Shown in pieces: positions 30,201 to 57,639 of a DNA stretch of 64,000 nucleotides (its first letter is position 1; every line of letters starts with the position of its first letter). Under the pieces are notes generated by a model. The model saw only the letters and a list, made by a program, of their open reading frames with translations. It ran no database searches and was not told the DNA's origin. Made by a program: the position numbers and the translations under genes. The DNA is taken from NCBI GenBank assembly GCA_964036295.1, contig OZ038470.1, positions 12,219,578 to 12,283,577 on the forward strand. The letters are read 5' to 3'. Source of the stretch: Plumapathes pennacea. Lineage: Eukaryota; Cnidaria; Anthozoa; Antipatharia; Myriopathidae.

Positions 30201-32337
30201 TTCGCTTGGGGCTACGCAGATAATCAGTAAACTACAGACCACCATCCCTCAACGTTTCTGAAGCATACTGCAATGTTTAGTGGCTAAACGTTGAATACGC
30301 ACTACGCAGTGAAGCTACATCACCCCCACCCCCCCCCCCTCCCCCCTCCGAAGTTTCTGAAGCATACTGCAATGTTTAGTGGCTAAAGGTTGGATACGCA
30401 CTACGCAGTGAAGCTACATCACCCCCACCCCCCCCCCCCCCCCCTCCGAAGTTTCTGAAGCGCTACGTACGCGCGCGCACACCCGTGCAGCCATTTCACC
30501 CTCATTTGTTCTACGATGCGTGGGGAGGGTTGCTCTTTAAAAACGTTGGTAGAGGGGTAGTCTAACGTCTTTCCTTTGGTGGAGTGCCTTAGAGAATGCG
30601 GGCTATTCTCTAGTTACTCCATTTCATTTTGTTCCGTTTTTGTTCACGTTTCCATTTTCCCGTTTCTCAGAGCCTGATTACGAGCTAATGGACCCCGCCA
30701 GGCGAGGCAGCCAGCAAGAGACTGAGAATGAACCAGCTCATGACTTAAATCACGACGAATATGTATCGATTCACGCCGACAATGCCGCTTTGCGTCATGG
30801 TTATTCTGTTCCCCGGCGAACGACCCCAGCCGACGATATATTGATCCCACAGACTCCGCGTTTGGAAAATGGGGCCTCGCAATCTGTTCCAACGTACCAT
30901 GCTTTTCCTTCCGAACACGAGCTACAATCCACCTCAGCTGACGATATGTCGACCGGAGCGACTTTGAACGAGCCGTCGCAACAGCCAAGTTGGGTTACTT
31001 TACCAAGAAAAAATCCACCGAAAATCCCCGAGCGAGTTGATCTCATGACAAAGAGGGCACCTAATGGGGAGGGTGCAGGAGGTACGTCTCGCGGGAGAGC
31101 CGACGCGCCGAACGGCGTTGTGAAACGGAAGACACCGGTTCCCACGCCGCGTAAAAAGACAAGCTCTGGAAAAAATCCGAGAGTCGAAGAGAGGCCCAAG
31201 AGTTACCCAGAAGGCGATGAAACGTCTTTGCAAAACGAGGCCATAATGGCCAACTTTGGGTCTGAAGAACAAGGCCCTCAGCGAGGGCCTGCCTCCAAAA
31301 TGGACCCTTCAGATAATAGGGTCCCTCCGCTAGGGGCTGAGGATGATCCTTTGTATATGTCCCAAAAGGGACCTAGTGAAGACAGCGAGTTGATATATGA
31401 GAGGCCTTGGGTGGTCTCTAATCCTTTGTACGATCTGCCAAGGCTTTCGGAGAGATTGACAAGTGAAACCCAGCACGTTTACGCACAGCCTGCAGCGCCA
31501 CAAGATCGCACAGTCAGAGATGACCCTGTGCCTGGTAACCACTTTTATGACCTTCCTAATATGGTAGCACAGCAGGGAACCGCTGACCATATTTACGAAC
31601 GCCCCGATATGTTGCAACCTCCCGTGCGGCCCCAGTCCAACACGGTCGGCCAAGAACCCGCCTCGCCACCTCTGCCTCCAAAAGACATCATGTCACGTGA
31701 TACTGTCCTTGAAACCACTCGTTTACCCGAACCGCTTCGACCAGTCCCATTAAGCCCGACGTCACCGACGACAACCGGGGGTTTCTGTTTTACTTCGGAA
31801 AATCACTTGGGTATGACGTCATCTTCGGTTCAGGCAGCAACGACTCCGTTGGCCGAGAAATTTTACGATAGGCCGTTTGTGCCCCCGCCGCCGCCGGAAA
31901 TACCCGAAGAGACTCTGCACCAGCCCCCGCCGGAGAGCCCGTTCGGCGAATCGCCATTTCCCGGAGGCTTGGATTCTAGCTTCAGTGGCATGACGCTCGA
32001 ATTTCGCCAAGCGCAATCTTTGCACGCGAGATTAGCGTCTGAGGGTGACGAAAGAGAAACTGTTGCTCCAGACGATCTCTCTTCGCTTGACGAGGAACAG
32101 CAAACTTTAGTTAAGCGAGTGCGCGCTGTGTGGGCAGGAGCGGACGCGGACTGGTGCTGTGCCGCGTTCATGCAATGCGACGGGGATTTGACTCAGATTC
32201 TGGAAATGGCCAAAGTTGAGCAGGTCCACTGCATCACAAGCAAGGTAAAGGAACACTGTAAGTTTACACTGAAGCACTGCAACTGGGATGTAGATCGCGC
32301 TGTCAATTGGATCCTTGACGAAGGTTTTAGCGGATAG
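24209..32337 (+). CDS. TNK2: ACK/TNK2-like non-receptor tyrosine kinase
   Basis: Eleven coding exons: 24209-24253, 25206-25343, 25542-25697, 26099-26287, 26776-26864, 27046-27172, 28155-28304, 28727-28827, 29110-29205, 30002-30141, 30671-32337. All borders are GT/AG and the total is 965 aa. The kinase domain has loop [12 protein letters not shown] Lys67, HRDLATRN (Asp163), DFG 181-183, FAWCSPE, and the ACK-like signature EFSPLGSLL. An SH3 region follows at about 299-365 ([13 protein letters not shown] ... [14 protein letters not shown]), then a long disordered tail with YxxP sites (YERP twice, YDLP twice, YDRP, YAQP) and proline-rich stretches. The C-terminus is a paired UBA-like helical region ([14 protein letters not shown]). 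Kinase-SH3-UBA order is diagnostic of the ACK family, which couples receptor and Cdc42 signalling to trafficking. No N-terminal SAM domain and no clear CRIB motif are visible; SAM could lie in an unseen 5' exon. The activation loop has no tyrosine. Confidence 0.93.
24990..25137. mobile_element. Short pogo-like MITE in ACK intron 1
   Basis: TAGTGGAACCCTGTT... at the left is mirrored by ...AACAAGGTTCCATTG at the right, with TA on each side (24988-24989, 25138-25139). Inner CAGTCATTTT and GGCTGTATTAAC motifs recur at 48455-48620. No coding capacity. Confidence 0.7.
25711..26032. mobile_element. GAGC-TA MITE, copy in ACK intron 3
   Basis: 322 bp. The termini GAGCAGTTTTCGGATGACTG and the inverse ...CAGTCATCCGAAAACGGCTC form inverted repeats of about 25 bp, and TA flanks both ends. 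The interior is rich in AACCAAAACC and has many CCAAT-like and ATTGG blocks. The copy at 47481-47794 is highly similar but inverted. TA target use suggests mobilisation by a Tc1/mariner-type transposase (inference). Confidence 0.88.
26325..26480 (+). repeat. Fragment of TTAA-type MITE family
   Basis: CAAATTCTCCCAACCCATCCAG followed by GTGATGTAGTGAGAACTAATC matches the family of 52742 and 58927. It lies in ACK intron 4 and lacks intact ends. Confidence 0.55.
27286..27847. mobile_element. 562-bp TIR element in ACK intron 6
   Basis: GAGTGATTTCAATAAACCCG continuing to GTGAAACAG at 27286-27314 is the exact inverse of 27819-27847, and TA flanks both ends. The interior has no transposase. It is flanked by ACTACT microsatellite sequence. 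Confidence 0.88.
30247..30460. repeat. Two-copy tandem repeat of about 105 bp with poly-C
   Basis: The unit GTTTCTGAAGCATACTGCAA ... CTACGCAGTGAAGCTACATC followed by a C-rich run occurs twice (about 30255 and 30352) in ACK intron 10. The C runs differ in length, as expected for slippage. Confidence 0.85.
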
Positions 32338-34799: not shown

Positions 34800-35314
34800 A
34801 GTTTTGAAGCCGTCAAGGCTTTCGATTCTGCGGCGCCAAAGATGCAGGAAGTCGGGCAACCTGACTTCGCTCTGCTGTACAGGTCGCACTCCGCAAGCTA
34901 CAACAGGTACAACCAGGACTTTGTGAAGAAATGGAAGCTGAAAAGTGCTGAGAGCGTTGTGCTGGGTCCAGCTGCCCAGATGTATGTTGCGTATGAATCT
35001 GTACTGGCAGACAAGGATCCAAGGCACCTTTGTATTGGCATACTACCTTGCAATATGTTATGGTCCTGGGTCGCGAAAGAACTCGACCCAACCGTGTCGG
35101 AGACCAGCCTGTACAAGCCGTGGTTCAAAGCAAATAAGTCAGATCACCAGTCGAGCGCAGAGCAATTTGTAAATAAGTTCTTCAGTGAAGCCGACCTTGA
35201 AAAGTGCCAGCCCATTTTTAACGAGGGGATGATTAACGAGCTGAATTTTTTCCTCTCCGCGTGCGATCAAGATCTTGTTGATTACGATTTCGGCAAACCC
35301 ACTCTACTTAATTA
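34800..35314 (+). pseudogene. TenA/THI-4-like gene copy 1, 5'-truncated
   Basis: Homology to copies 2 and 3 begins abruptly at TTTTGAAGCCGTC (about 34800). Residues 1-82 of the full protein are missing, including the Asp/Tyr pair of the ligand pocket, and no promoter or first exon is attached. The remaining frame (FEAVKAF... to the stop) is open, including the PCNMLW cysteine and the NELNFF glutamate, so truncation is recent. It keeps the early TAG also found in copy 2. This is the left edge of a tandem duplication. Confidence 0.85.
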
Positions 35315-35937
35315 GCAGAATAAAGTTGTAGAATAGAGTGATGTTTTTAAGGGCTGGATTTTATCATTAGTTTATATTACACTTCTATAGATTTGGCCGG
35401 CAATAAATTGCGGTGATATCCCAACAGACTAGTGTTTGAACTTAATGCTTTTGCTTTTTTGTTGGTATGGTACTTATGATGGTGCATAAGAAATAAAATA
35501 TTTACTGTTTCACAAAAATATGTTTCATTGCAATCTCCCAACGACACCCATTGGAAAACTTGTTATCAGAGGCAAGTGCGTTAGTGCCCAGCACATGGAA
35601 CGTTCGCCTAAAACTAACTGGTAATCCCAAGCGTCGTATGTGAATATTGGTAACCTTCTTCTGAGCCGTGTGAACGAGATTTGGCCTCGCTTCTGGTGGG
35701 AAAATTGCGCGGCGCCACGCCGAGGGGCCCGTATCTCTTGTCTCATCACCCAAAGCGATAGGAGCCGAGAAACTTCAAGGCCAATTTCGTGTGAACCATA
35801 TTACTGCGAGATCACCTCGCGAACGAAACTCAGCGTGCTTGTGAAAGGCCTGGCCCCGGCCCGCGTATTGTATTATTTGATCACAACATGGCTATTTGTA
35901 AACTTGCGCAGAGTCATTTAGCAGAGTCAACATGAAT

Positions 35938-35945
35938 TATATAAG
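35938..35945 (+). promoter_or_regulatory. TATA-like box upstream of TenA-like copy 2
   Basis: TATATAAG about 240 bp before the UTR-exon donor at 36182/36183. The same box is kept at 39866-39873 before copy 3. Confidence 0.4.
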
Positions 35946-36563
35946 TAAAGAACTGAATACAGACACGCCGAAACACATCATGCCCAAAGGCGATTACACA
36001 TTCCTGCTATTCAAGCTATCAAGATTGACATTCCTGCACGAACGCAACTGCTGTGAAAACTGACACTGCCGAGGTGGCATGATTGACTTGTTGTTCCTGT
36101 TTACAGATTTCCGCAGTGCATTAAAATCAAGTACAGTCTGTGTTTCTCTGTAGCTGGTACGCTGAAGTTCTAAGATTTAAAGGTAAGATAAACTTTTGAA
36201 ATCTCTGGGCAGGGAGGCCGCTGAAGTTCGGATTCCCAGGTGCAGCTTTCTTTTTTTAAGGCCTTGGTAGCGTGGCAGGAGTGAAAAGCTCTGGCTTTTT
36301 TTTTTTTCTTTTTTGATGTTGGGACACAAGCATATGCACCTTCTGTAGCACCATAATGTCTTCAGTCTCCTGTCGTGAATAATGTCAAAGATTTGTACAG
36401 CCCTTTGTTAAGAATGCTTCTGAAAACATAGCTGAAGCGCACTGTAAAGATTCTGATTTTTTTTCGGAAGCCACTCATCGGAAATTAACTCGTTGTGAGT
36501 ATTACCATACAAACGTGATTACTACAGGACTTTTTTCCTTCTAGATATCAAACACCAGTTGGA

Positions 36564-37976
36564 ATGAGTCACTCAAAAGGTTGGTTCAGTATTTCTTCTT
36601 CGACCCTTCCGATGAGGTTCCGTATGTAATTAAATTCTTTCTTGTTTTCGGGGATCCAAACCGAAGATTATTATCAGAGTTAAGCCGGATACACCAGATC
36701 AGTGTCTTTGCAAGTTGGGGTGCAAAACGCTTTCTTATAATGGCGGAGCACGAGCTAACATAACTAAGGCTGACCCTCCAAGGAGAGAGGCCCTCCCAGA
36801 AGGGTCACCCTTCTCTATTGAAATTCCTTGTTCCGTTGACATGATAGGTAGTGTCTCCCTGGGAGGAGGGTTCCCCTATCTAGCTAGGATAGCTCTCCCA
36901 GCAGGGACAACTTTTGGCCATGTAAACGGTTACCCTCCCAGGGGGGGGTCTAAGTTTAGCAGTGCCATGTTACTCTCAAATCCCGCCATATTTTATATTT
37001 TTTAATAGCTTCGCTTTTGGCGAGATAGCCCAAGGAACTATAGCGCTTGGCATGTAAAAGGGGGGGGGACTATCTTTTGACCCTTCTAATAGGGGGGTAG
37101 GGTCACCCTCCTTCCATGTAAACAGGGCTGAAAACTACAGACCAAAATATTGGCTTGAGTTCGAATAGGCTTGTTGTTTATCTTGCATCCTCAAAAATAC
37201 ACACAAGGAACTCTTCTTTTCACTCCATGGCAGCAAAGCAATATGGCACAGGCCGTCACCAGAGATTTCTTTATGGGATCGCCAACGGAACTCCTGCTCA
37301 ACGGGTGATGGGACCCAGTTTTTCTCAAACGCTGTTTGAGAACCCCACCAGTAAAGCGATCTGCAAGGCTGTGATAAATACAAAGTTTTTCAAAGGAATG
37401 GTTCAAGGCACTCTGGATCCGGAGAACTATGGTGGCTACATGGTCCAAGACGCGGCCTACTGTTTTGAAGCCGTCAAGGCTTTCGATTCTGCGGCGCCAA
37501 AGATGCAGGAAGCCGGGCAACCTGACTTCGCTCTGCTGTACAGGTCGCACTCCGCAAGCTACAACAGGTACAACCAGGACTTCGTGAAGAAATGGAAGCT
37601 GAAAAGTGCTGAGAGCGTTGTGCTGGGTCCAGCTGCCCAGATGTATGTGGCGTATGAATCTGCACTGGGAGACAAGGATCCAAGGCACCTTTGTATTGGC
37701 ATACTACCTTGCAATATGCTGTGGCCCTGGGTCGCGAAAGAACTCGACCCACACGTGCCGGAGACCAGCCTGTACAAGCCATGGTTCAAAGCAAATAAGT
37801 CAGATCACCAGTCGAGCGCAGAGCAATTTGTAGATAAGTTCTTTAGTAAAGACGACCTTGAAAAGTGCCAGCCCATTTTTAACGAGGGAATGATTAACGA
37901 GCTGAATTTTTTCCTCTCCGCGTGCAATCAAGATCTTGTTGATTACGATTTCGGCAAACCCACTCTACTTAATTAG
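36564..37976 (+). CDS. TenA/THI-4 (thiaminase II-like) protein, copy 2
   Basis: Coding exons 36564-36579 (ATGAGTCACTCAAAAG|GTTGG) and 37234-37976 join in frame to 252 aa; a 5'UTR exon ends at about 36182. The first exon is conserved in copies 3 and 4. An alternative start, ATG 37227 in the large exon, would replace the first five residues. The protein fits the TenA/PqqC heme-oxygenase-like helical fold. Asp78 and Tyr81 (VQDAAY), Cys165 (ILPCNMLWPW) and Glu228 (INELNFF) match the aminopyrimidine-binding and catalytic positions of bacterial TenA. Those enzymes hydrolyse thiamin breakdown products for salvage; the animal proteins are uncharacterised, so the substrate is unproven. No signal peptide. 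It ends at TAG where copy 3 has Trp. Confidence 0.85.
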
Positions 37977-38145
37977 CAGAATAAAGTTGTAGAATAGAGT
38001 GATGTTTTTAAGGGCTGGATTTTATCATTAGTTTATATTACACTTCTATAGATTTGGCCGGCAATAAATTGCGGTGATATCCCAACAGACTAGTGTTTGA
38101 ACTTAATGCTTTTGCTTTTTTGTTGGTATGGTACTTATGATGGTG

Positions 38146-38170
38146 CATAAGAAATAAAATATTTACTGTT
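38146..38170 (+). terminator. Polyadenylation region of TenA-like copy 2
   Basis: GAAATAAAATATT (AATAAA) about 180 bp after the stop, kept at the same place in copy 3. An earlier AATAAA (CGGCAATAAATTG) lies about 90 bp after the stop. Confidence 0.45.
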
Positions 38171-38458
38171 TCACAAAAATATGTTTCATTGCAATCTCCC
38201 AACGACACCCATTGGAAAACTTGTTATCAGAGGCAAGTGCGTTAGTGCCCAGCACATGGAACGTTCGCCTAAAACTAACTGGTAATCCCAAGCGTCGTAT
38301 GTGAATATTGGTAACCTTCTTCTGAGCCGTGTGAACGAGATTTGGCCTCGCTTCTGGTGGGAAAATTGCGCGGCGCCACGCCGAGGGGCCCGTATCTCTT
38401 GTCTCATCACCCAAAGCGATAGGAGCCGAGAAACTTCAAGGCCAATTTCGTGTGAACC

Positions 38459-39715
38459 GGGCAGGTACAAAACCTGGACCCCCCTATTTGGACCCCCATT
38501 TGGACCCCCATTTGGACCCCCTTTTGGACCCCCATTTGGACCCCCATTTTTTTAAAAAAATAAAATATATATTAATAATTAATGATGATAATATTGATGT
38601 AATAATAATACAATTTCTCATATATAATTAAATGAAAAGCCAATAAAACTGCGAGCTGTGAGCTGCGAGCTGAAAAGTCACTTTAAAAAATTAAAAAGAA
38701 AATAGAAAAAAGTCCGTCTTTTTGTGTTTGCTTCGCTTTGTTTGTCAGCGATTTTTTTCTTAATAGCACTTTTTTTTTGTAGCAACAATTTACAACAAAA
38801 TATAAAGGGGTCAGTTTATTTCTTCACACTGGTTGTCTGCTTTATGTCTTTCCTGCAAGGTAAACGTCACTTATTTATTTAATTTTAACCGTCTTTACTT
38901 GTGGTTTACTTCGCTGTACAGTCAACTCACTGTAATCAAGACGCGAAAAAGCGAAAGAAGAATGCAAGTGATTCCAGTAAAAGGCTGTGCAAGTGTGTGT
39001 TTTCGCCTGTTAAGTGTATATACCTGACGGGAAAAGTGACGATATGCATTGATTACTCCCTACTGTCAGGTCTGGTATATTTTATTATTTCCAGGGACGT
39101 ACCTGTCATCAGGTCTATTTTCAGGTCTGTTATAAAACTTCGTAAACATCCGGTGTCCGCTTTGAAAGGATTTTTTTATTGAAATGTTTAATAAAAATGT
39201 GTCCGCTGTCCGCCTTAGAGATAGTTCAGTTACAGCGGAGAAACAAGTGAAATTCAGCAGGGACCAAATTTGCTGTCCGCCTTTTTAGAGAGTGTCCGCT
39301 TAGAGAGAGTTGACTGTATTCAAACCAGAAATGCCAGTAAAGGCTGGTTCACACGAGCAAGCAAGCGCAAATGCAAACGCAAGCGCAAGCGGTAAAATTT
39401 GTGAAGCAAGTCTCTCGTGTGCCAGGGCCGGAAAGATCCGCTCTACAGGAGTCGTGCAGCGTTTCCGGTTTCACAAAAAGACGGACTTTTTTCCATTTTC
39501 TTTTTAATTTTTTAAAGTGACTTTTCAGCTCGCAGCCCACAGCTCGCAGTTTTATTGGCTTTTCATTTAATTATATATGAGAAATTGTATTATTATTACA
39601 TCAATATTATCATCATTAATTATTAATATATATATATTTTTTTTAAAAAAATGGGGGTCCAAATGGGGGTCCAAATGGGGGTCCAAATAGGGGGGTCCAG
39701 GTTTTATACCTGCCC
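38459..39715. mobile_element. Non-autonomous Mutator-like element, long TIRs, 10-bp TSD
   Basis: 1257 bp. The target duplication CGTGTGAACC is perfect at 38449-38458 and 39716-39725. Termini start GGGCAGGTA and continue as inverted repeats of about 250 bp; each TIR begins with tandem ATTTGGACCCCC units, then an AT-rich block, then a CTGCGAGCTGTGAGCTGCGAG-like block. The interior (about 38715-39480) has no transposase and contains a reused stretch with GTCCGC repeats. The paralogous spacer at about 35783-35803 lacks it, so this is a dated insertion. A 10-bp TSD with long TIRs is typical of the MULE superfamily. Confidence 0.92.
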
Positions 39716-39865
39716 CGTGTGAACCATATTACTGCGAGATCACCTCGCGAACGAAACTCAGCGTGCTTGTGAAAGGCCTGGCCCCGGCCCGCGTATTGTA
39801 TTATTTGATCACAACATGGCTATTTGTAAACTTGCGCAGAGTCATTTAGCAGAGTCAACATGAAT

Positions 39866-39873
39866 TATATAAG
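39866..39873 (+). promoter_or_regulatory. TATA-like box upstream of TenA-like copy 3
   Basis: TATATAAG, identical in context to that of copy 2. The inserted element ends 140 bp further upstream, so the core promoter of copy 3 is intact but its distal upstream region is separated. Confidence 0.4.
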
Positions 39874-40492
39874 TAAAGAACTGAATACAGACACGCCGAA
39901 ACACATCATGCCCAAAGGCGATTACACATTCCTGCTATTCAAGCTATCAAGATTGACATTCCTGCACGAACGCAACTGCTGTGAAAACTGACACTGCCGA
40001 GCTGGCATGATTGACTTGTTGTTCCTGTTTACAGATTTCCGCAGTGCATTAAAATCAAGTACAGTCTGTGTTTCTCTGTAGCTGGTACGCTGAAGTTCTA
40101 AGATTTAAAGGTAAGATAAACTTTTGAAATCTCTGGGCAGGGAGGCCGCTGAAGTTCGGATTCCCAGGTGCAGCTTTCTCTTTTTTAAGGCCTTGGTAGC
40201 GTGGCAGGAGTGAAAAGCTCTGGCTTTTTTTTTTTTCTTTTTTGATGTTGGGACACAAGCATATGCACCTTCTGTAGCACCATAATGTCTTCAGTCTCCT
40301 GTCGTGAATAATGTCAAAGATTTGTACAGCCCTTTGTTAAGAATGCTTCTGAAAACATAGCTGAAGCGCACTGTAAAGATTCTGATTTTTTTTCGGAAGC
40401 CACTCATCGGAAATTAACTCGTTGTGAGTATTACCATACAAACGTGATTACTACAGGACTTTTTTCCTTCTAGATATCAAACACCAGTTGGA

Positions 40493-41922
40493 ATGAGTCA
40501 CTCAAAAGGTTGGTTCAGTATTTCTTCTTCGACCCTTCCGATGAGGTTCCGTATGTAATTAAATTCTTTCTTGTTTTCGGGGATCCAAACCGAAGATTAT
40601 TATCAGAGTTAAGCCGGATACACCAGATCAGTGTCTTTGCAAGTTGGGGTGCAAAACGCTTTCTTATAATGGCGGAGCACGAGCTAACACAACTAAGGCT
40701 GACCCTCCAAGGAGAGAGGCCCTCCCAGAAGGGTCACCCTTCTCTATTGAAATTCCTTGTTCCGTTGTCTCCCTGGGAGGAGGGTTCCCCTATCTAGCTA
40801 GGATAGCTCTCCCAGCAGGGACAACTTTTGGCCATGTAAACGGTTACCCTCCCAGGGGGGGGCTAAGTTTAGCAGTGCCATGTTACTCTCAAATCCCGCC
40901 ATATTTTATATTTTTTAATAGCTTCGCTTTTGGCGAGATAGCCCAAGGAACTATAGCGCTTGGCATGTAAAGGGGGGGGGGGGGGGACTATCTTTTGACC
41001 CTTCTAATAGGGGATAGGGGGGTAGGGTCACCCTCCTTCCATGTAAACAGGGCTGAAAACTACAGACCAAAATATTGGCTTGAGTTCGAATAGGCTTGTT
41101 GTTTATCTTGCATCCTCAAAAATGCACACAAGGAACTCTTCTTTTCACTCCATGGCAGCAAAGCAATATGGCACAGGCCGTCACCAGAGATTTCTTTATG
41201 GGATCGCCAACGGAACTCCTGCTCAACGGGTGATGGGACCCAGTTTTTCTCAAACGCTGTTTGAGAACCCCACCAGTAAAGCGATCTGCAAGGCTGTGAT
41301 AAATACAAAGTTTTTCAAAGGAATGGTCCAAGGCACTCTGGATCCGGAGAACTATGGTGGCTACATGGTCCAAGACGCGGCCTACTGTTTTGAAGCCGTC
41401 AAGGCTTTCGATTCTGCGGCGCCAAAGATGCAGGAAGCCGGGCAACCTGACTTCGCTCTGCTGTACAGGTCGCACTCCGCAAGCTACAACAGGTACAACC
41501 AGGACTTCGTGAAGAAATGGAAGCTGAAAAGTGCTGAGAGCGTTGTGCTGGGTCCAGCTGCCCAGATGTATGTGGCGTATGAATCTGTACTGGCAGACAA
41601 GGATCCAAGGCACCTTTGTATTGGCATACTACCTTGCAATATGCTGTGGCCCTGGGTCGCGAAAGAACTCGACCCACACGTGCCGGAGACCAGCCTGTAC
41701 AAGCCATGGTTCAAAGCAAATAAGTCAGATCACCAGTCGAGCGCAGAGCAATTTGTAGATAAGTTCTTCAGTAAAGACGACCTTGAAAAGTGCCAGCCCA
41801 TTTTTAACGAGGGGATGATTAACGAGCTGAATTTTTTCCTCTCCGCGTGCGGTGAAGATCTTGTTGATTACGATATCGGCAAACCCGCTCCACCTAATTG
41901 GCAGAATAAAGTTGTAGAATAG
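40493..41922 (+). CDS. TenA/THI-4 (thiaminase II-like) protein, copy 3
   Basis: Coding exons 40493-40508 and 41159-41922, 259 aa; 5'UTR exon ends at 40110. Almost identical to copy 2, with the same pocket residues (Asp, Tyr, Cys, Glu). Differences include VLADKD for ALGDKD and a C-terminus of YDIGKPAPPNWQNKVVE, because TGG replaces the TAG of copies 1 and 2. The intron has a 15-bp deletion relative to copy 2 near 40768. About 195 bp of 3' flank are shared with copies 1 and 2 before homology stops at 42118. It is the only one of the first three copies with the longer tail. Confidence 0.85.
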
Positions 41923-42215
41923 AGTGATGTTTTTAAGGGCTGGATTTTATCATTAGTTTATATTACACTTCTATAGATTTGGCCGGCAATAAATTGCGGT
42001 GATATCCCAACAGGCTAGTGTTTGAACTTAATGCTTTTGCTTTTTTGTTGGTATGGTACTTATGATGGTGCATAAGAAATAAAATATTTACTGTTTCACA
42101 AAAATATGTTTTATTGCAATTGGTATTGTAACGGACCGAGGCCAGTGCGCTCTGGCCTTTCACCGGAGCCTAAGAAGGCCGAAGAACAAGTTGATCCGCA
42201 TCCCCCCTATCGAGG

Positions 42216-43310: not shown

Positions 43311-44090
43311 TGCACCAGAAGCTGAAAAACATGTGTGGAATCAAGATAAAGAATACCAACAGTTCTTCGAAGTGGGCACTCAAGTTAAAGTAAGATGGAC
43401 CAAAGAAGAAATTGGGGGAACAGGTTGGAGGCCGGGGTGGTACAGTGCCGAGGTACAAGAGGCTGACATTGTATCAGATGAAATCACATTGGTTTACTTA
43501 TCAGAGCCGGATTCGACCTATACATGCGAAGTGACCCCACTTCTTGCAGGGGTGTATCGAAAACGAAGACCCCGAAAACGAAGACCTAAGACCCAGAAAA
43601 CGAAGAGCCCAAAATAAATTAACATAAATTTGCGGGGTCTTCGTTTTCTGGGTCTTCGTTTTCGATTTTCGGTGGTGGGTGTATCGAAAACGGGTGTATC
43701 GAAAACGAAGACCCCGAAAACGAAGACCTAGGACCCAGAAAACGAAGACCCCAAAATAAATTAACATAAATTTGCGGGGTCTTCGTTTTCGATTTTCGGT
43801 GGTGGGTGTATCGAAAACGAAGACCCCGAAAACGAAGACCCCAACAGTAATAGCCAACAGCTTCACTAAGTGGCACTCTATTTCATACTGCTTGTTCAAG
43901 CTTTACGACGAGTGGCAAAAATTGCGGGGTCTTCGTTTTCGATACACCCACCACCGAAAATCGAAAACGAAGACCCCGCAAATTTATGTTAATTTATTTT
44001 GGGGTCTTCGTTTTCTGGGTCTTAGGTCTTCGTTTTCGGGGTCTTCGTTTTCGATACACCCCTTCTTGCAGAGGGTAAACTGAGACTGAT
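43311..44090 (+). pseudogene. Transposon-borne ORF interrupted by foldback insertion
   Basis: The frame from about 43311 (WNQDKEYQQFFEVGTQV...RWTKEE...GWYSAEVQ...TLVYLSEPDSTYTCEVTPLLA) is open to 43549. After removing the 512-bp insert and one copy of its target duplication, it reads on for 12 codons to TAG at 44090. The VGTQVKVRW...GWYSAEV pattern resembles a small SH3-like barrel. A 28-bp tandem duplication at 43237-43292 disrupts the upstream frame. I do not recognise the family; it is probably the tail of a transposon protein. Confidence 0.5.
43550..44061. mobile_element. Foldback element with 10-bp TSD
   Basis: Termini GGGTGTATCGAAAACGAAGA and its inverse, with target duplication CTTCTTGCAG at 43540-43549 and 44062-44071. 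The body is made of repeated GAAAACGAAGACCC modules on both strands plus AAATAAATTAACATAAATTT blocks, so it can fold on itself almost entirely. No coding capacity; Mutator-like by TSD length. Confidence 0.88.
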
Positions 44091-52934: not shown

Positions 52935-55037
52935 CAAAATAAAGATGGTGCAGTCAAGATTATATCATTCGCCAAACAATCCAAAAAGCGAATATGTGTA
53001 AATACATGTCCTGGGTATCGAAATACAATTCTCCCCGCCATTGATGAAGAGACAGTAAGGGTGACGCAAAGCGAATTTATAGCTGGATCAGATGTCAAGT
53101 TTTCATATCGTACTGCATGTTCCTGTTGGTAAATTTAGTCAGTTTGTCTTGTTAGGACTCAAACGGTTAGCGAATTTTTGGTTAGCATCTCTACGGACAT
53201 TTGCTTTCTTACGTACCGTAAATGCTCTGAAAAGACCCCCCTCTCCCCTTCCCCCCTTCCAATTTAGAAATTGCCCTGTGATCATGCAACATACAAGGGG
53301 TATTGAGGGGGGGGGGGGGGGGTTTAAGGGGTGGGGGGTGGGGGAGTAATATATTCGGGAAGAATTTTGTGGGGCAATAACTACAAACGGGATTTTACAG
53401 TATGTCGGTTCTAATTCTCGTTCGCCTATAGATATTTATAGAAGTTATGCATTTAATGCTCCTGTAGAGTGACTTATTTATTAATTTATTTATTGATAGT
53501 ATTTCATTTGAAAATAAAGGGTAGTGTTCTGCCCAGTTTAGATGTTTTTAAAGCGCTGATAATGCGCTTATTGTTGATAGTTATTTTGCGTATGGATTAT
53601 GTAATGGATACTCCTCTCCTCCCCCCCCCCCCCCCCCCCCGGAAAAAATTATAATGTCGAGCTGCTTTTTTTATCATAATCCTTCGCTAAGGCAGTTTTG
53701 AATCCAGGTAACCCTTTCGCATTGTTCTTCATGACCTCATGACAAAAAGGGTTTCAAGCCATTATCACCGACGCCATGGGCCGTGTGTTATAATCGGGAA
53801 CTCAACACGTTTTATACAGTCAGTCAATCTTGATTACTTTTACAGCACAAGGGAGAAAAATGATAACACTTAGATTCCCCATCGGTAAAACCAAGTAAAA
53901 GTGTTCAACCCCAAGTCTCTTTCGGCTGATTCGCACTGACACACTAATTCTTACATATTTATTTCAATCAGCTCGATTTCTCTTATGGTGAATAGTTTGT
54001 CACTCAAATGACGTATACAACCTGTCAACCGACTTCGAATCGTGCAGTCGGTTGTGTCCCTGATCGAGATTATTCGTCAGTGCCTCTTCAAGATTTGAAA
54101 AAGAGGTAAATATTCAGGCATATCCTTTTGGTTTCAGTTGATAACGGACTTCCCTCAGGTTTTACATGTACGTTTAGCTTTTCGTGACTCGTTTGCCATG
54201 TATACCAAATACATATGGGCGCAAGTAATTCAGTTAGTTGGCCTTTGGGGCGGCGAATGGACCTGAACTCGATGCGTTTTTGACCCTGCATGGACTTGCT
54301 CTGGGCTTGGAAGGCCCAGCAAGACCAAAAGAATGACAAATCAGGAATGGATTTGAAAAATTCAACTATATTGACTCCTTCTCGTGCATGACTGAACGCA
54401 TTCAGTACCAGCTGCGGAGCCGCTCTGTTGGACAAAGCACAGGGCAAGGCCAAAATCGAGAAAAAAGGATTCGGACGAATCCTTTCTAAAAAAGAATGCG
54501 ATGGATTCAAAATCCAGATTTGAAAGTTGTCCAAGGAATACCCTTCACGTCGGCTTTAGGATCAGGAACTCCCGTAACTTTCGGTTCATCTAACACTTGA
54601 TCCGTGTGAGGCCGGCTGATTCATTTCAGTTCCCCTCACACGAAACAAGTCCTTTAGGTCAGAATCTGAAAAGTAAAGATTTTGATACTAAAGCGCATGC
54701 ACGGGTGATTTCACTCCAGAAAGGATTCATTCGAATCTGTTTTTCTCGATTCTAGCTTCTGTTTTGCCCTCGAGCATATAAAATTCTCGGCTGGTATCAA
54801 ATGTGAGTTTAATGCGTTCAGTCATGTACTCGGTACGAGTCAATTATATAGTTGAAATTTTCAAATCCATTCCTGAATTGTTGTTCTTTTGGTCTTGCTG
54901 GGCCTTCGAATCCCAGAGCGAATCCATGCAGGGTCAGAAATCCGTCGCCGGAGTTCAGGTGATTCGCCCAAAGGGAACCAACTAAATGTTTGCGCCTGCT
55001 AACGACTCACGAAAGCAAAACGTACCACTACAAGCCA
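52935..55037. other. Intergenic with foldback element
   Basis: PH-gene 3' flank, poly-G and poly-C runs at about 53310-53345 and 53621-53640, and the inverted repeat 54225-54985. No exon supported; the frame at 54088-54534 on the minus strand lies in the repeat. Confidence 0.45.
54225..54985. mobile_element. Foldback element with arms of about 260 bp
   Basis: 54225-54510 (AGTTAGTTGGCCTTTGGGGC ... CCTGCATGGA ... GCCCAGCAAGACCAAAAGAA ...) is repeated in inverse at about 54715-54985. Arms have diverged, so it is older than the TenA-array insertion. The frame in the left arm looks incidental. Confidence 0.65.
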
Positions 55038-55195
55038 TGCTTCTGAAAACATAACTGAAGCGCGCTGTGAAGATTCTGATTTTTTTCCTTCCGGCGGAAG
55101 ACACTCATCGGAAATTATAAACTCGTTGTGAGTATTACCATGCAAACTTAACTTATAGAATTTTTTTTCCTTCTAGATATCAAACACCAGTTGGG

Positions 55196-56597
55196 ATGAG
55201 TCAATCAAAAGGTTGGTTTAATAATTTCTTCTTTGACCCTTCTGATGAAGTTTCGTATGTAATTAAATTATTCCTTGTTTTGGGGATCCAACCCGAAGAT
55301 TTTTATCAGAGTTAAACCGTATTCATCAGATTTGTCTTTGCAAGTTGGGGCGCAAAACGCTTTCTTACGGCGTAACTATATTTAGTTGGCGGAGCACGAT
55401 ACTGACACAGCTAAGGCCGACCCTCCTATGAGAGACGCCCTCCTGGAAGGGTCACCCTTCTCTATTAAAACTCCTTGTTCCGTTTACATGATAGAGGGTC
55501 GCCCTAGGAGGAGGGTTACCCTATCTCCTTGCTAGGGTAGCCCTCCCAACTTTTGGCTATGTAAACGCTCGAGGTATAGGTTTACCCTCCCAGGAGAGCT
55601 AAGTTTAGCAGTGCCAGGTCACCCTCAAATCTCGCCATGTTTTGTAATGGCTTCGCTCTTGGCGAGATAGCCCCTGGGATAGCGCTTGGCATGAAAAAGA
55701 GGGAGGGAGGGGGGGGGGGGCTATCTTTTGACCCTTCTAGAAGGGTGTCCCTCCTTGGAGTGTCATGCACCCTCCTTCCATGTAAATCTTGTATTCTCAA
55801 AAATGCCCACCTGAAACTTTTCTTTTCACTCCATGACAGCAAAGCAATATGGCATGGGCCGTCACCAGAGACTTCGTTATGGGATCGCCAATTTCGAGAA
55901 CCTCTTCGGAACTCCTGCTCAGCGAGCGCTGAAACCCAGTTTCAGTCAAACGCTGTTTGAAAACCCCACCAGTAAAGCGATCTGCGAGGCTGTGATAAAT
56001 ACAATGTTTTTCAAAGGAATGGTTCAAGGCACTCTGGATCCGGAGGACTATGGTGGCTACATGGTCCAAGACGCGGCCTACTGTTTTGAAGCCGTCAAGG
56101 CTTTCGATTCTGCGGCGCCAAAGATGCAGGAAGCCGGGCAACCTGACTTCGCTCTGCTGTACAGGTCGCAGTCCGCAAGCTACAACAGCTACAACCAGGA
56201 CTTTGTGAAGAAATGGAAGCTGAAAAGTGCTGAGAGCGTTGTGCTGGGTCCAGCTGCCCAGATGTATGTGGCGTATGAATCTGCACTGGGAGACAAGGAC
56301 CCAAGGCACCTTTGTATTGGCATACTACCTTGCAATATGCTGTGGCCCTGGGTCGCGAAAGAACTCGACTCAAAAGTGCCGGATTCCAGCCTGTACAAGC
56401 CATGGTTCAAAGCAAATAAGTCAGATCACCAGTCGAGCGCAGAGCAATTTGTAGATAAGTTCTTCAGTAAAGCCGACCTTGAAAAGTGCCAGCCCATTTT
56501 TAACGAGGGAATGATTAACGAGCTGAATTTTTTCCTCTCCGCATGCGATCAAGATCTTGTTGATTACGACTTTGGCCAAGTCGTTTCCACAGAATAA
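55196..56597 (+). CDS. TenA/THI-4 (thiaminase II-like) protein, copy 4
   Basis: Coding exons 55196-55211 and 55840-56597, 257 aa. The first exon (ATGAGTCAATCAAAAG|GTTGG) and the acceptor are conserved with copies 2 and 3, which supports the two-exon model. The protein has a six-residue insertion near residue 24 (NFENLF), keeps the QD-AAY, PCNMLW and NELNFF pocket residues, and ends FGQVVSTE. Homology to the array starts at 55038, so it lacks the UTR exon and TATA-like promoter of copies 2 and 3 and must use another. DNA divergence is well above that among copies 1-3, so it split off earlier. Confidence 0.85.
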
Positions 56598-57003
56598 AGC
56601 AGAATAAGGTTGTAGAATACAGTGATAGGACGTTTTTAAGGGCTGGATTTATCACTAGTTTATATTAAAAGCTTCTATTGGCCGGCAATAAATTGCGGTC
56701 ACATCCCAACAGACTATTGTTTGAACTTAATACTTTTGCTTGTGATGGTACTTATGATGATAAAATATTTATTGTTTCACAAAAATATGTTTTATTCTTT
56801 ACTGCGGCGTCAACCACTTGAAAAAGTGCCTGTTCCCAGGCCCTTTCCATTTATCCAAAAACGCAAGGGATTGTGGGATCCCCAAAGCGTCCCATGACGC
56901 AGTGCGGTTTCTGCGTGATACGTGTTATTTGATTGGTTGATTCGTGAATTAGTTCGTGTTGCGTTTTCCATTGTAGCAATTCGTTTTGCTCCGCTTCGTG
57001 CTG

Positions 57004-57639
57004 ATGGGAAAATACGAGAAATTTGACGTTTCCTACAAGGAACGTCGCTTCAACTGGCCCGTCTGGCTCATCCCGATATTTGCCGCTTTTCTGATCCTTG
57101 TGATCGCACTTTTCATCTTCGTAACTCTTGATTCAAACCGACGCTTTGGTTGTTTATTGGGCTGCGAAATCGATCAAGAAAAAGAAACATCTGCTCAAAA
57201 TCGCGAAGAGCCCACGCCGTCAGCGAAATCGGAGTTAAAGGCTCAGCAAGATCCTTCACTGACCAAAAAAATGATCGACATAAGTGGCAAGATCATTTTC
57301 CCCGCCGACAAGATTCCCGAAACTTTGCCAGCAAACTCGCACTTGAAGGTCAAATTCGAAGATGTCACCTTGCAGGATGTCAGCTCTCACTTGCTAGCTT
57401 CTACTGAGGTTGACTTGAGCGGCTACGAGAAAGACAAACAACTTGAATACACCCTCAGATGCGAGAAGCCGTCGACAGACGGGACGTACAGTGTTTCTGC
57501 TGTTCTAAATGTTGGTTGGGCGCCATCGGGAGATGACTGGATTCATAAGAATGATTTCCACTGTGATACTATGCATTCTGTCAACATAGAGGACGACAAA
57601 AACGAGTACACCAAGGATATCGAGTTGGTAAAGTATTAG
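57004..57639 (+). CDS. Single-pass membrane protein with YscW/YbaY-like domain
   Basis: One coding exon, 211 aa, ATG 57004. A short charged N-terminus (MGKYEKFDVSYKERR) precedes one hydrophobic helix at about 20-42, then a Glu/Gln/Ser linker. From about 95 to the end is a beta-rich domain: ISGKIIFPADKIPETLPANS, LKVKFEDVTLQDVSS, TYSVSAVLNVGW. The pattern 'G.I.......LP..S.L.V..EDV...D......A' is that of the YscW/YbaY lipoprotein-chaperone fold known from bacteria and found in some invertebrates. Type II orientation (C-terminal domain outside or lumenal) is likely. A donor shortly after the stop (AAAG|GTAAGG) and an acceptor at about 58508 suggest a 3'UTR intron. Function unknown. Confidence 0.75.
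   Translation: MGKYEKFDVSYKERRFNWPVWLIPIFAAFLILVIALFIFVTLDSNRRFGCLLGCEIDQEKETSAQNREEPTPSAKSELKAQQDPSLTKKMIDISGKIIFPADKIPETLPANSHLKVKFEDVTLQDVSSHLLASTEVDLSGYEKDKQLEYTLRCEKPSTDGTYSVSAVLNVGWAPSGDDWIHKNDFHCDTMHSVNIEDDKNEYTKDIELVKY

Follow-up and report, generated by a model that had tools for sequence, protein, structure and literature searches.

TenA genes are known from animals, cnidarians included, and BtTenA-like members have been described in cnidarians, fish, molluscs, and echinoderms (Stentz et al. 2023, PMC10277260). Earlier finds of this enzyme type, which cleaves vitamin B1, extend to corals, sea anemones, molluscs, and fish. BtTenA degrades thiamin in vitro (PMC10277260), and of the tandem TenA-like pair in zebrafish, one has been shown in recombinant form to be a thiaminase I (Richter et al. 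2023, PMC9839694). Here we describe TenA-like genes in a 64,000-nucleotide stretch of the Plumapathes pennacea genome (C9:12219578-12283577, in a searched assembly of 290 Mb and 24 contigs), hereafter the window, in whose coordinates features are given. These genes are further members of a known animal family, since members are reported in PMC10277260 (2023) and PMC9839694, and the surprise expressed in an earlier note on this DNA at finding the family in an animal was out of date. Specific to the present genome are a young array, a further cluster, intact copies of which five in six show no clear signal peptide, and signs of exchange between copies. We consider it probable that the window holds a young tandem expansion of a BtTenA-like gene in an animal nuclear genome, a reading that includes the proposed enzyme and copy history set out below, and whose directly established parts are the array anatomy, the predicted TenA fold, the aligned pocket residues, the subclass grouping, and the site patterns of exchange.

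Comparison of the window with itself revealed a tandem repeat at 34801-42120 with a period of 2661 bp, bearing out the recent tandem amplification proposed earlier. Every TenA-like gene of the array is open in frame without interruption, and because the repeat units begin within the gene, the array shows one 5'-truncated and two full-length genes. The fourth copy, which the earlier note had placed 14 kb away, was found at that distance downstream of the array.

34801-37461, plus strand: tandem unit 1, 2661 bp (self-comparison)
37462-41386, plus strand: tandem unit 2, 3925 bp, longer because of an inverted-repeat element
41387-42120, plus strand: partial tandem unit 3 (self-comparison)
34801-35315, plus strand: copy 1, 5'-truncated TenA-like gene, first 78 codons missing, including the Asp/Tyr part of the pocket
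37227-37976, plus strand: copy 2, full-length TenA-like gene, one open frame of 249 amino acids from the ATG
41152-41922, plus strand: copy 3, full-length TenA-like gene, one open frame of 256 amino acids from the ATG
55833-56597, plus strand: copy 4, an older TenA-like gene of full length, 254 amino acids, within a duplicated stretch at about 55037-56796

Units 1 and 2 were 98.2% identical over 997 columns (18 mismatches) and, in a second block, 98.0% identical over 1687 columns (5 mismatches and 5 gap openings), a likeness for which chance is out of the question. The repeat unit of about 2.67 kb given previously fits unit 1 but not the longer unit 2; likewise, the description of spacers differing by a few bases and short indels was incomplete, as the second spacer additionally carries an element of 1257 bp. 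Copy 1, a probable pseudogene, is truncated at its 5' end as had been recognized, although the loss amounts to about one-third of the gene and not one-half. Identity between the surroundings of copy 4 and those of copies 2 and 3 was ~79-90%, varying with the stretch compared and with the counting of gaps.

Copies 2, 3, and 4 matched Pfam PF03070 (TenA/THI-4/PQQC) at 25.2, 25.0, and 23.3 bits, respectively, against a gathering threshold of 22, and copy 1 gave no Pfam match at an E value of 1. The predicted model of copy 3 displayed an all-helical TenA-type fold, so that profile matches and fold both upheld the TenA-like identity first proposed; no heme oxygenase was among the sequence matches listed for these proteins. 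By alignment, the pocket residues of copy 3 are Asp75, Tyr78, Cys162, and Glu225, counted from the ATG of MAAK; the earlier note had named the same residues with numbers three higher (Asp78, Tyr81, Cys165, Glu228), and we take the pocket roles of the Asp and Tyr from its statement. Copies 2, 3, and 4 keep the whole set, but copy 1 lost its Asp and Tyr with its 5' part, so the residues are complete in three window copies and not in all four as had been claimed. Cys162 and the single conserved Glu225 aligned with the corresponding positions of BtTenA, and the roles of the active-site Cys and Glu in this subclass have been described (PMC10277260).

Sequence comparison places the genes in the BtTenA-like subclass. 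BtTenA (BT_3146, PDB 2a2m/2a2o) was their best match in both sequence and fold, has the Cys and single Glu at equivalent positions, and fell on the same side of a branch with 100/100 support. It differs in that copies 2-4 are 34-35% identical to the 185-residue BT3146 piece, and the present genes, whose activity is predicted, are arranged in tandem in the genome of an animal. Canonical TenA/thiaminase II (TIGR04306; Bacillus subtilis TenA) lay on a separate side of the tree, and the two proteins scanned scored below the cut-off of 130 bits for the canonical thiaminase-II/salvage_TenA equivalog (46.3 bits for copy 2 and 44.2 bits for copy 4). The zebrafish genes, likened here by description, are also animal TenA-like genes arranged as an adjacent direct repeat, but they have three exons and signal sequences (PMC9839694), whereas copies 2-4 are each a single open frame in which no signal is clearly seen.

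A genome-wide protein search returned eight matches (10 candidates scored), of which four are those of the window and four lie at C10:7985354-7990641. The latter are divergent paralogues in tandem with 31-34% identity in that search; three have frames open from end to end, and the frame of the fourth is disrupted. Among the three that are intact, the ratio of nonsynonymous to synonymous substitution (dN/dS) was 0.37-0.41 (p 9e-8 to 1e-5), which showed that they are under purifying selection. In the tree, the copies of C9 and C10 grouped with the BtTenA-like subclass, apart from other TenA proteins, at the 100/100 split, and each set formed one group at 100/100. The 21 rows were chosen (six window and C10 copies, BT3146, six BtTenA-like loci, and eight other TenA loci), leaving out copy 1, the frame-disrupted C10 copy, and other animals, and a program warning flagged two end branches as long. 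This tree is compatible with C9 and C10 either forming one animal clade or standing apart, and hence with both two transfers and one old duplication. Of the eight copies, one is truncated, one has a disrupted frame, two are near-identical, one is an older neighbour, and three are diverged and under purifying selection; they provide assay material from an animal lineage outside fish.

In the copy history that we propose, the copies would have arisen through unequal exchange, the first would have been truncated, a mobile element would have inserted into one spacer, and gene conversion would have mixed the copies, with copy number probably near neutral or of mild dosage effect. The protein would be an enzyme, probably intracellular, in which Cys162, with help from Glu225, Asp75, and Tyr78, attacks thiamin or one of its breakdown products at the aminopyrimidine part. 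The other half would be released to water if the enzyme is a thiaminase II, or to another base if, like the zebrafish homologue, it is a thiaminase I. Judged from family and pocket, cleavage of thiamin or a relative on the aminopyrimidine side is the likely reaction.

Two purposes for such a reaction may be put forward, both tentatively. The first is thiamin salvage, in which aminopyrimidine breakdown products, whether dietary, supplied by symbionts, or taken from seawater, would be hydrolysed to hydroxymethylpyrimidine (HMP) and rebuilt into thiamin by the animal or its symbionts. TenA enzymes act in this way in bacteria, yeast, and plants (PMC10277260), and the present genome has a match to thiamin pyrophosphokinase. 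Plain hydropathy also detected no hydrophobic N-terminal segment in five of the six intact copies, making an intracellular place plausible (the highest 12-residue mean was 0.35-0.61 in these five and 1.77 in d1 of C10, although an upstream exon may be missed). Salvage is disfavoured by the salvage_TenA scores given above, both of which are under the equivalog cut-off. A mitochondrial presequence was considered on the observation that the first 25 residues of five of the six copies hold no acidic residue, and was set aside as too weak to claim.

The second, to which we give the same weight, is ecological or defensive destruction of thiamin by a thiaminase I, leaving less thiamin for microbes, symbionts, or predators. 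It draws on the zebrafish tandem pair with its one recombinant thiaminase I, and slower bacterial growth and limited predation are among the hypotheses raised in PMC9839694. Against it, the zebrafish proteins carry signal sequences (PMC9839694), while plain hydropathy makes none visible in five of our six intact copies, d1 of C10 with its mildly hydrophobic stretch being the exception, and the excerpts of PMC10277260 and PMC9839694 describe no assay of a cnidarian member. More speculative, and quite improbable in our estimation, is a combined scheme with two separately placed tandem sets of BtTenA-like enzymes lacking a clear secretion signal, the C9 and C10 types. Conversion and changes in copy number would still be re-sorting and diversifying the C9 set, because symbionts or microbes would exert a shifting selection on intracellular thiamin cleavage or pyrimidine salvage.

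Several points weigh against a young expansion of genes for an active enzyme. The brown anemone member has Ser in place of the Cys (PMC10277260), so activity is not to be assumed across cnidarians. Constraint was not shown by dN/dS among copies 2-4, and the excess of coding over downstream differences between copies 1 and 2 (below) is unexpected under simple tandem duplication. Finally, the recent part of the array could be two haplotypes placed end to end, i.e., an assembly artefact in which copies 2 and 3 represent a single locus. The spacers of units 1 and 2, with mismatches at just 5/1687 columns, are possibly within heterozygosity, as such an artefact would have it. We nevertheless judge it unlikely: the array starts inside a gene at 34801 and ends at 42120 with copy 1 truncated, the coding differences among copies 1-3 (12-20/515 positions) exceed those of the spacers, the window is situated some 12.2 Mb along a contig of 17.4 Mb, and the C10 cluster presents the same family in tandem elsewhere.

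As for a true expansion, dN/dS among copies 2-4, the comparison that the earlier note had suggested, spanned 0.43-0.79. It was counted over 241 codons ending at DLVDYD, with the tail excluded (0.43, 0.55, and 0.57; Fisher p 0.37, 0.18, and 0.10), and over the whole frame of 249 codons, in which the tail of copy 4 is diverged (0.79, 0.63, and 0.61; p 0.72, 0.14, and 0.15). Given these p values, neutrality was not rejected by either count. Over the 3' part common with copy 1, six pairs gave 0.39-0.63. The view that pockets kept during amplification signify selection was thus not sustained: copy 1 has lost two of the residues, neutrality was not rejected, and the argument would need older copies.

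The copies appear to exchange sequence. Across ~450 bp mid-gene, copy 4 shared 96-99% identity with copies 2 and 3, compared with 82-90% in the flanking blocks, and its synonymous differences were depleted mid-gene (3/103 versus 7.5/47 and 8.5/47; p 0.004 and 0.0016), with boundaries that were chosen after the profile was seen. Across the shared 515 bp we counted 46 variable sites (45 with a gapped alignment), three of which join copies 1 and 4 and three copies 1 and 3; three further sites join copies 3 and 4, but these fall in the last 27 bases, where the copy 4 tail is poorly alignable, and were not relied on. Gene conversion is the best explanation of these patterns and the cheapest reading. 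Diversifying selection is the weaker rival and very unlikely as the source of the coding differences among the young copies, for although coding divergence exceeds that of adjoining non-coding sequence (copies 1 and 2, 18/515 versus 0/482 downstream, p 8e-6; copies 2 and 3, 12/515 versus 5/1674, p 5e-5, with the spacer count borrowed from units 1 and 2), every comparison has a dN/dS below 1, synonymous sites also differ, and the conflicting site patterns indicate conversion.

The extra size of unit 2 corresponds to an inserted element in the second spacer.

38459-39715, no strand assigned: terminal-inverted-repeat element, 1257 bp, second spacer
38449-38458 (left) and 39716-39725 (right), no strand assigned: 10-bp target-site duplication CGTGTGAACC, a direct repeat flanking the element

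Its arms comprise a 222-nt stretch that is 97% complementary and a 70-nt stretch that is 96% complementary. Unit 1 retains the empty site undisturbed, with CGTGTGAACC present once (35788-35797). The element is dispersed, with at least 51 matching pieces in the genome (277-base left-end query, the window's two ends counted), and at several genome places opposite-strand ends were paired 1-2 kb apart.

Relatives were also sought more widely. Plasmid, phage, single-sequence viral, and genome scans with query P0002 found none, while alignment scans confirmed four of 35 genome stretches and three of 12 viral-contig stretches. The BtTenA-like gene on three viral contigs (L016, L017, and L018) lay, on L016, the one inspected, near open frames that are phage-like by eye. 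Phages may carry this subclass between bacteria. Matches occurred in 70 of 386 genomes of a cyanobacterial phylum sample and in 30 of 395 of a Bacteroidota sample; above 150 bits there remained 1/386, the centre genome itself, and 2/395, one of them the centre genome, so near relatives looked rare in the two sampled phyla. A literature search returned no paper that combined thiaminases, cnidarians, and horizontal gene transfer, a negative that does not establish absence.

The neighbouring genes fit an animal nuclear genome, and thereby corroborated the setting assumed in the earlier note. The window encodes a P450 whose best solved relatives (PDB) are vitamin-D 24-hydroxylase and CYP11A1 (cholesterol side-chain cleavage), and a Cupin_8/JmjC gene split over two separate open frames; a rhodopsin-type receptor adjoins the C10 cluster. 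The open frame at 56986-57639, 0.4 kb downstream of copy 4, has a hydrophobic stretch near its N end by eye and a Pfam match barely over the cut-off (23.6 versus 22.6) to YscW, whose name comes from bacterial lipoprotein chaperones; the frame is perhaps YbaY-like. The frame at 30553-32337, perhaps TNK2-like, has a UBA-like Pfam match below cut-off. Repeats elsewhere in the window include a GGGTCTTCGTTTTCG-like motif in nested inverted and direct repeats (43536-44075) and a 54-bp tandem repeat of 13.9 copies (612-1360), located within an open frame (402-2048) that continues into a protein-kinase domain.
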